Shown: one piece after another, positions 20,799-21,383 of the stretch
Layout: each line of letters opens with the position of its first letter
Position numbering within the stretch: the first letter of the stretch is position 1
From: Pirellulales bacterium
GTDB taxonomy: Bacteria; Planctomycetota; Planctomycetia; Pirellulales; S012-138
DNA length: 48,346 nt
Direction of reading: 5' to 3'
NCBI GenBank assembly: GCA_028066245.1
Contig: JALCBR010000028.1
Location: 1 to 48,346, forward strand
Translations under genes and position numbers: made by a program
Notes under the pieces: model-generated
Told to the model about the DNA's origin: nothing
Database searches by the model: none
What the model saw: the letters and a program-made list of their open reading frames with translations, nothing else

Positions 20799-21034
20799 GC
20801 CAGGCTCCTTGAGGGAAGTTACATCACTTACACATTGACAGTTTGACGGACGCGCCTCGTCGGTTGATGCCTATTTCATGAGCACCACAGAGCAAATATG
20901 GTTCGGCGCAATCTTCTGTTTGTTGTGACTGTTGTGGCAGGTTCAAAGTGAGAAAGTGAGTTTGTGTGGCACACTGGCTCGTCATGTCCGAATTGCGAAG
21001 TTGGAATCACGCAATGAGTGATTCAGGATGATCC
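20799..21034. other. Intergenic region between acetyltransferase gene and terminator
   Basis: No gene recognised. The AAGGAG ribosome site of the acetyltransferase lies at its left end. TTGACA occurs at 20833-20838 on the plus strand but no matching -10 sequence is found at a proper distance. Confidence 0.35.
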
Positions 21035-21075
21035 AAATAAACGAGCCCCGGTCCCAAAAGCGGAAACCGGGGCTC
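21035..21075 (-). terminator. Strong hairpin terminator or attenuator
   Basis: A perfect 10-bp stem (GAGCCCCGGT 21043-21052, ACCGGGGCTC 21066-21075) with a 13-base loop is followed on the minus strand by GTTTATTTGG. It lies after the two small minus-strand ORFs and before the acetyltransferase gene at 20798. It may end the small-ORF transcript or act as an attenuator. Confidence 0.65.
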
Positions 21076-21114
21076 TGATACTCGTTCGGGATCATACGGT
21101 GATCCTTCCGAGAT

Positions 21115-21160
21115 GGTGGCTGTCAATTGACAGCCCGCCGGCTGTTTACGGGCAGCCACC
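21115..21160 (-). promoter_or_regulatory. Set of mutually exclusive hairpins overlapping the micro-ORF stop
   Basis: Three pairings compete. GGTGGCTG/CAGCCACC (8 bp, 21115-21122 with 21153-21160) closes the whole segment. The 18-base palindrome GGCTGTCAATTGACAGCC fills 21118-21135. CAGCC/GGCTG with a 4-base loop occupies 21131-21144. The 14-codon ORF ends inside this segment (TAA at 21146-21148), so a ribosome pausing on it would change which pairing forms. The pairings are seen in sequence; the regulatory role is inferred. Confidence 0.45.
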
Positions 21161-21190
21161 TCGTTGATTGCAACAACAACCAGATGTCAC
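21146..21190 (-). CDS. Cys-rich 14-residue micro-ORF (possible leader peptide)
   Basis: GTG start, 14 residues, TAA stop; product MTSGCCCNQRGGCP, with three adjacent Cys codons and a fourth Cys. The start is preceded, 7 bases after GGAGG, by the extended Shine-Dalgarno AAAGGAGGTGATCC (21192-21205 complement), which is fully complementary to the 3' end of bacterial 16S rRNA. The GTGA overlap with the stop of the upstream 60-codon ORF indicates translational coupling. A Cys-codon run followed by alternative hairpins and a terminator is the layout of a cysteine-sensing leader peptide; a metal-binding or signalling micropeptide is the alternative. No known family recognised. Confidence 0.5.
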   Translation of the reverse strand: MTSGCCCNQRGGCP

Positions 21191-21369
21191 AGGATCACCT
21201 CCTTTCCAACTAGAACCCGCCAATGCCGCCGGGATTGTCGCCGATGGCAGTTGGCCGCTAGTCCGTCGCGACTGCGTCCGTCACGACCCACTACCTCAAT
21301 GGTGTGGTCTCCCCAGTTTGAAGGCAAGAGAAATCCGCACACCCACGGACGCGACGCGAAGCATTTCAA
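21187..21369 (-). CDS. Small basic protein, 60 residues, unknown
   Basis: TTG start with AAAGGAG 7 bases upstream (21377-21383 complement). The product is 60 residues, soluble and basic in its second half (GRDGRSRDGLAANCHRRQSR), with three Cys residues and no obvious domain. Its stop overlaps the GTG of the Cys-rich micro-ORF as GTGA. The repeated arrangement of ribosome site and 7-base spacing in both ORFs argues that the pair is translated, although I cannot name a family. It could also be the coding part of a regulatory leader. Confidence 0.45.
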   Translation of the reverse strand: MKCFASRPWVCGFLLPSNWGDHTIEVVGRDGRSRDGLAANCHRRQSRRHWRVLVGKEVIL

Positions 21370-21383
21370 GCCGCAACTCCTTT

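Follow-up and report, generated by a model that had tools for sequence, protein, structure and literature searches.

The poly-Cys leader ORFs of mycobacteria are leaderless attenuators that precede cysteine-related genes. The CC2171 RNA of Caulobacter and other Alphaproteobacteria (RF01867) is a free-standing small RNA in which GAAAGGAGGTGATCC, one base and a GTG start introduce a short ORF. In cyanobacteria, the Downstream-peptide motif, or yfr6, is described as an RNA of ~250 nt with a structured 5' part and a short conserved ORF, marked by synonymous changes and by indels in threes (PMC2864571). The table of the same survey gives the Rhodopirellula-1 motif of Proteobacteria and Planctomycetes a possible cis-regulatory role, marks its RNA nature as uncertain and lists no Rfam number for it (PMC2864571, Table 1). 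Dual-function small RNAs provide further comparisons; Spot 42 encodes the 15 aa SpfP, and rnTrpL the 14 aa peTrpL (both as cited in PMC10117765).

Our study reports on a locus in the window, the whole 48,346-nucleotide stretch of Pirellulales DNA that was analysed, which is, judged from its sequence and that of its relatives, one copy of a free-standing structured small RNA gene of ~255 bases carrying a micropeptide mini-gene. The RNA family to which it belongs spans the Planctomycetota and is apparently undescribed. The gene is flanked by a divergent mnmE and by a GNAT acetyltransferase (20798-20235, Pfam Acetyltransf_3), which lies 245 bases beyond it and was correctly named as the next gene in the initial annotation. 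Its features are as follows.

~21292-21034, minus strand: RNA gene with a promoter-like sequence and its own terminator; it holds a 14-codon ORF behind a very strong ribosome-binding site
21299..21327, minus strand: promoter-like sequence, -35 TTGCCT (21327-21322), 17-nt spacer, weak -10 CACCAT (21304-21299)
21265..21287, minus strand: hairpin H1, GTCGTGAC-[GGACGCA]-GTCGCGAC, whose six stem pairs all vary compensatorily across members
21209..21262, minus strand: long hairpin H2, ACTAG...CTAGT, in the predicted fold, ending just 5' of the Shine-Dalgarno sequence (SD)
21192..21207, minus strand: extended SD GGAAAGGAGGTGATCC, with 15 nt complementary to the genome's own 16S tail
21190-21146, minus strand: 14-codon micro-ORF, GTG..TAA, MTSGCCCNQRGGCP, kept in relatives
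21153..21160, minus strand: 5' strand of P2, GGTGGCTG, inside the ORF, covarying with 21122-21115
21131..21144, minus strand: P3 hairpin CAGCC-[GGCG]-GGCTG, starting one base 3' of the stop codon
21115..21122, minus strand: 3' strand of P2, CAGCCACC, covarying with the 5' strand
21098..21105, minus strand: anti-SD GGATCACC, which repeats part of the 16S tail and can mask the SD at 21199-21192 (helix P1)
21081..21112, minus strand: predicted hairpin P4, CTCG..GGATCA/TGATCC..CGAG, forming when SD pairing is forbidden
21034..21075, minus strand: intrinsic terminator with a 13-bp stem (21075-21043) and the T-rich tail GTTTATTT

The closest precedent is yfr6, likewise a structured RNA that stands free and has a conserved short ORF, although it comes from another phylum and is likened here by its published description (PMC2864571). 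The Rhodopirellula-1 motif shares with the element its occurrence in Planctomycetes and, compared by its table description, may be identical to it (PMC2864571). Spot 42 and rnTrpL, in the form in which they are cited, are alike in being short RNAs with an ORF of 14-15 codons; unlike them, the planctomycete fold encloses both the SD and the ORF and has no conserved attenuated operon behind it. Like the mycobacterial leaders, the element has consecutive Cys codons within a very short ORF, but it differs from them in that it has an extreme SD, stands alone and can dispense with Cys. A search of the literature, including that on CC2171 and on planctomycete RNA motifs, returned nothing on the window's element, and ARAGORN found 0 genes with tmRNA- or tRNA-like ends in the window and 18 loci. 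The SD string is the reverse complement of the 16S tail; an antisense 16S gene was considered and rejected, as Rfam gives no rRNA at the locus and the true 16S tail lies on contig C95.

When the window and members were scanned, none of the 4227 Rfam families scored above its cut-off, and the nearest was CC2171, whose model gave a sub-threshold 19.1 bits for the window and 31.6 bits for the best of ten planctomycete members (L193, E 0.003) against a cut-off of 75 bits. The window shares with CC2171 the arrangement of GAAAGGAGGTGATCC, one base, GTG and a short ORF, followed by a helix that closes near the terminator; in CC2171 the ORF is VSHC.. and the helix is CATTGTC/GACAATG. A genome scan for a full SD one base away from a GTG start, with a Cys codon early in the ORF, gave mostly Alphaproteobacteria among the matches listed, and 10 of 18 such loci that were scanned are themselves Rfam CC2171 (75-91 bits). 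CC2171 differs in lacking the H1/H2 domain (its upstream signal is only promoter-like) and the P3 loop motif; its peptide, of 14-26 residues, is unlike the planctomycete peptides in sequence. When R1, our covariance model of the planctomycete element, was compared with the alphaproteobacterial loci, essentially the SD alone was matched. The CC2171 RNAs are best called analogues of the planctomycete element, possibly distant relatives, the SD carrying most of the score. Among the matches listed, 60 of 79 alphaproteobacterial loci read GTGTCTCA, mostly giving VSHC.., while Bradyrhizobium has VSYxKRCHLAGIAR and Rhodobacterales have VSR(K/E)MLE(R/K)GVG, without the early Cys; in CC2171-type loci CATTGTC, at the start of the ORF, is able to pair with a GACAATG 5' of the terminator. 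A Reyranella locus (L031, 764-900; Alphaproteobacteria) reads ..GATCC-T-GTGACATCC and has the ORF's first bases as in the window, without the P3 motif.

R1 was built from the first ~75 nt of five sequences (the window, L151 and L147-149) and at E<1e-3 found single copies of the element in 88 of the 297 genomes searched in the order and in 43 of 294 from the phylum; a further search around the genome G601 gave 19 of 59. Weak matches of ~26 nt (E 0.03-0.05), probably the antisense of 16S tails, were left out of these counts. The promoter, H1, H2, P2 and the terminator, none of which was modelled, recur around the R1 matches and thus give independent support for the family. The simpler pattern AAAGGAGGTGATCC-N(1-3)-RTG matched in 15 of 397 order genomes, against 0 for the reversed control, and every match, except one at a contig end, was followed by an ORF of 10-16 codons with Cys, most of them with a clear terminator. 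A 186-nt segment of the locus folds at z = -5.2, a value equalled by 0 of 200 shuffles, which together with the phylum-wide conservation places the observation beyond chance. The absence of conservation, which the initial annotation had named as fatal to its proposal, is the opposite of what was found across relatives and the phylum. Still, the distribution is patchy, since the window's own family, in its four other genomes, gave no R1 match at E<1e-3 and only three weak ones at E ~0.04. These four, which belong to other genera, are without a match although the element is present in many further families of the order, a pattern that may reflect patchy loss, strong divergence or transfer. Narrower searches gave little: DNA similarity returned the own genome and a chance 28-bp match, without synteny, in one genome of the family (G003); the plasmid search returned noise; synteny upstream of mnmE was not found within the family; and a literal peptide pattern across the phylum and an SD followed by three Cys codons in the order each matched the window alone, both patterns being too strict. 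A Phycisphaerales contig (L060, 7155-7300) carries a full SD, VIQDCRRGPSR, a CTCGACGGAG hairpin and a terminator, and is a possible distant member.

On the minus strand GGAAAGGAGGTGATCC is followed by T and then by the GTG start. The strong SD, AAAGGAGGTGATCC, and its complementarity to the 16S tail hold up against the genome's own 16S gene, in which 15 nt of the 3' tail (GGATCACCTCCTTTCT, contig C95) are complemented by GAAAGGAGGTGATCC. The genome has five GGAGGTGATCC sites, one being the 16S gene, and among the other four the full AAAGGAGGTGATCC occurs only here. Across the 98 inspected members, AAAGGAGGTG is exact in 75, the longest match to the 16S-tail complement is 7-16 nt, mostly 11-14, and the start mostly stands 7 nt from GGAGG, which is the best spacing. 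An ORF of 10-16 codons is kept in 98/98. In members of the main peptide type, in which frame-keeping indels were scored, the distance from the start to GAGGTGG is 22, 25, 28 or 31 nt, so that indels come in threes and the frame is kept; outside this series stand L251, with an apparently mis-chosen start two bases early, and L201, with a variant motif, and the distant members L255 and L258, of another peptide type, have a distance of 23. Single-base codon differences among 13-codon members are synonymous in a fraction of 0.36 in frame, against 0.21 and 0.26 in the other frames; among 10-codon members, few sequences of one clade type, the fraction is not higher in frame. On the strength of the invariant ORF, the spacing, the indels in threes and the synonymous excess of the 13-codon members, we favour translation of the ORF, with Cys not required. 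The initial description of a 14-codon GTG..TAA frame and, in outline, of a Cys-rich micropeptide gene is thereby upheld, most members having Cys.

The peptides, with a mean GRAVY of -0.41, are mostly hydrophilic, and fall into a V-E-Y-x-C-T-S-Q-R-G-G-x-A type, an M-C-S-x-x-Q-R-W-L-A type and more basic ones. They differ from family to family (MCSGNQRWLV, VEYVCTSQRGGSA, VSNEGRNRRGRV) while P3 and its loop are constant; QRGG and Cys positions are found again in distant families. From one peptide type to another the RNA retains AGAGGTGGC, read in a different frame, and the C-terminal half of the peptide may therefore follow an RNA constraint.

That the ORF lies within a conserved fold is indicated by covariation. 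In a 34-sequence alignment P2 and P3 together have 95.5% of cells paired, and 7 of their 11 pairs show double changes; 0 of 500 shuffles do as well, and slid controls reach 13-53%; separately, P2 has 95% of cells paired over six core pairs, four with compensatory changes, and P3 has 96%, with compensatory changes in 3 of 5 pairs. The P3 loop contacts the loop of H1, through CGC at 21276-21274 in the window. Across members, an H1 loop of xCGC goes with a P3 loop of GGCG and xCGT with GACG; 61 of 62 non-redundant members agree (59 clear and 2 mixed readings), one distant member disagrees, and the CGT/GACG state occurs in several separate families. This nearly perfect covariation is strong evidence for a loop-loop contact between H1 and P3 that would enclose the SD and the ORF. 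In relatives H1 follows a GTCGTGC[nnACGC]GGCACGAC pattern, and its stems, which had been chosen to pair, vary at every position yet pair, swaps of the 3' strand between members lowering pairing to 52%. H2 is likewise recurrent: ACTAGAGGCCCGC...GCGGGNNNTCTAGT is present in most aligned members, and ACTAGA...TCTAGT lies directly 5' of the SD in relatives. At the promoter position TTGC..-17-..ATA(A/T) recurs in aligned members; a strict sigma-70 consensus scan at the locus gave no match, and the start of the RNA is predicted near 21292.

These 5' elements decide the status of a second frame. The initial annotation had two overlapping minus-strand ORFs, and both are present: a 60-codon frame with a TTG start (21369-21187) overlaps the 14-codon ORF at its end as GTGA. 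The longer frame, however, contains the promoter region and the conserved H1 and H2 and has no Pfam match, for which reasons we consider it spurious and not a gene. Translational coupling of the two ORFs falls with it, the frame spanning promoter and 5' domain, as does an RNA beginning with the 60-codon ORF, the predicted start lying inside that frame.

Masking of the SD is a further level of structure. The window SD GGTGATCC is able to pair with GGATCACC, and the masked fold is predicted at -119.5 kcal/mol versus -111.1 kcal/mol for the open fold, 8.4 kcal/mol better. The minimum free energy structure includes P1, while P2, P3 and P4 form when the SD is left unpaired, P4 then being predicted to hold the anti-SD in its own hairpin; similar hairpins are visible in members. 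Across members 82% of P1 cells are paired, and 3 of 500 shuffles reach its covariation score; when SDs were exchanged between members, pairing became worse on average (z = -2.8; 58 of 20,000 permutations did as well, with no control for relatedness). Masking appears moderately well shown in the window's lineage and some related ones. Universal masking was rejected: several lineages show no such pairing, because of which masking is either confined to certain lineages or achieved differently in the others. Three hairpins in which the short ORF ends had been called mutually exclusive, which fits P1 versus P4, and a ribosome versus P2 and P3, but not P2 and P3 themselves, which nest and coexist. 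GC-rich repeats lie 3' of the micro-ORF stop, and the GC-rich terminator and T-rich tail were found as described; terminators with T runs also stand 3' of the element in relatives.

The same layout had been read as that of a leader-peptide attenuator, with Cys-tRNA as the signal and the downstream gene as the target, for which a short Cys-rich ORF, alternative hairpins and a terminator would speak, as would an MFS gene close behind the terminator in one genus. By simple ORF calling, the next downstream gene is on the same strand at 42 of 71 loci and opposite at 29, and checking the downstream gene at each locus, as had been proposed, revealed no recurring family: among 49 downstream and 40 upstream proteins, no Pfam neighbour family has more than four members, and those that recur are common planctomycete families or come from one genus. 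The acetyltransferase is not kept in relatives. Because neighbours are not conserved and the next gene is often opposite, the element is best regarded as standing alone and not as a cis leader or attenuator. The conserved run of Cys codons that an attenuator demands is not seen, Cys occurring in only 82 of 98 members and missing from 16, including several separate lineages (for example MSSGIQRWLV and VESDFSSQQRGGTA), a loss that makes Cys-tRNA sensing unlikely. We therefore hold attenuation to be very improbable. The terminator forms in all three predicted states, with no competing pairing seen. In the genus concerned (L153-L161), the element (VTHGDCTGECSGGFSY) lies between a TPMT-type methyltransferase and the MFS transporter, and local cis effects are possible there because the MFS gene starts shortly after the terminator.

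The gene unit, the ORF, P2, P3 and the loop contact are established by comparison among members; we infer that translation acts as a switch, and that the working product would be the micropeptide, the RNA in its closed form, or the two together. The reading we favour, with a probability of about 0.55, is a micropeptide mRNA or dual-function small RNA whose translation would be gated by its own fold. Transcription from the promoter would yield an RNA comprising the 5' domain (H1, H2), the near-perfect SD, the 10-16 codon ORF, P3, P2 and the terminator. P2 joins the end of the ORF with downstream sequence, P3 stands right behind the stop, and H1 touches P3 by its loop and so closes the fold around SD and ORF. 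In the window's lineage and some related ones the SD can also be masked through P1, by the 16S-tail copy further 3', and P4 would form in the open state instead. To translate the ORF as far as the stop, one base before P3, a ribosome would have to open P2, P3 and the loop contact, so that the RNA would switch between a closed and a translated form.

We prefer this to the reading in which the folded RNA is itself the product, regulatory or ribosome-binding, with the SD docking 30S subunits, the ORF loading and unloading ribosomes and the peptide a by-product. That view, possible though doubtful, gains from RNA elements being better kept than the peptide, whose types differ while P3 and its loop stay, from the retention of AGAGGTGGC across a frame change and from an SD that in many members is far longer than initiation needs; against it, indels keep the frame in the scored main-type members and QRGG and Cys positions recur in distant families. 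Control of the micropeptide gene by a riboswitch, the 5' domain binding a small molecule and setting translation of the ORF, would be analogous to Downstream-peptide/yfr6, which is described as a similarly free-standing RNA, ~250 nt long, whose short ORF is conserved (PMC2864571), and would suit a conserved 5' domain and loop contact beside a maskable SD. We consider it unlikely: in the profile, few unpaired bases of the 5' domain are invariant once the CGC/CGT loop and the helix ends are set aside, fewer than in most metabolite aptamers, and no enzyme gene lies downstream that would point to a ligand. The mRNA of a type I toxin with a masked SD would also be a free-standing unit with a small ORF, but peptides of 10-16 mostly hydrophilic residues are not membrane-spanning, the element is single-copy throughout the phylum and no antisense RNA was seen, so that this identity is scarcely credible.

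A more speculative reading, to which we give little weight, is a ribosome-sensing RNA switch in which free 30S subunits compete with the built-in 16S tail for the SD. Plentiful 30S subunits would lead to translation of the ORF and opening of the H1-P3 contact, while under scarcity the RNA would close and adopt its other working form. If true, the RNA would gauge translation capacity in general, with the micropeptide or the closed RNA as its readout. The element represents a well-supported RNA family in which a covarying fold encloses a micro-ORF, and it comes from a phylum with few studies of small RNAs. CC2171, filed as a small RNA yet having a short ORF and an SD complementary to the full 16S tail, could have its function re-examined as that of a tiny mRNA, and the family allows one to ask directly whether a free-standing RNA can be switched by ribosomes loading on its micro-ORF.
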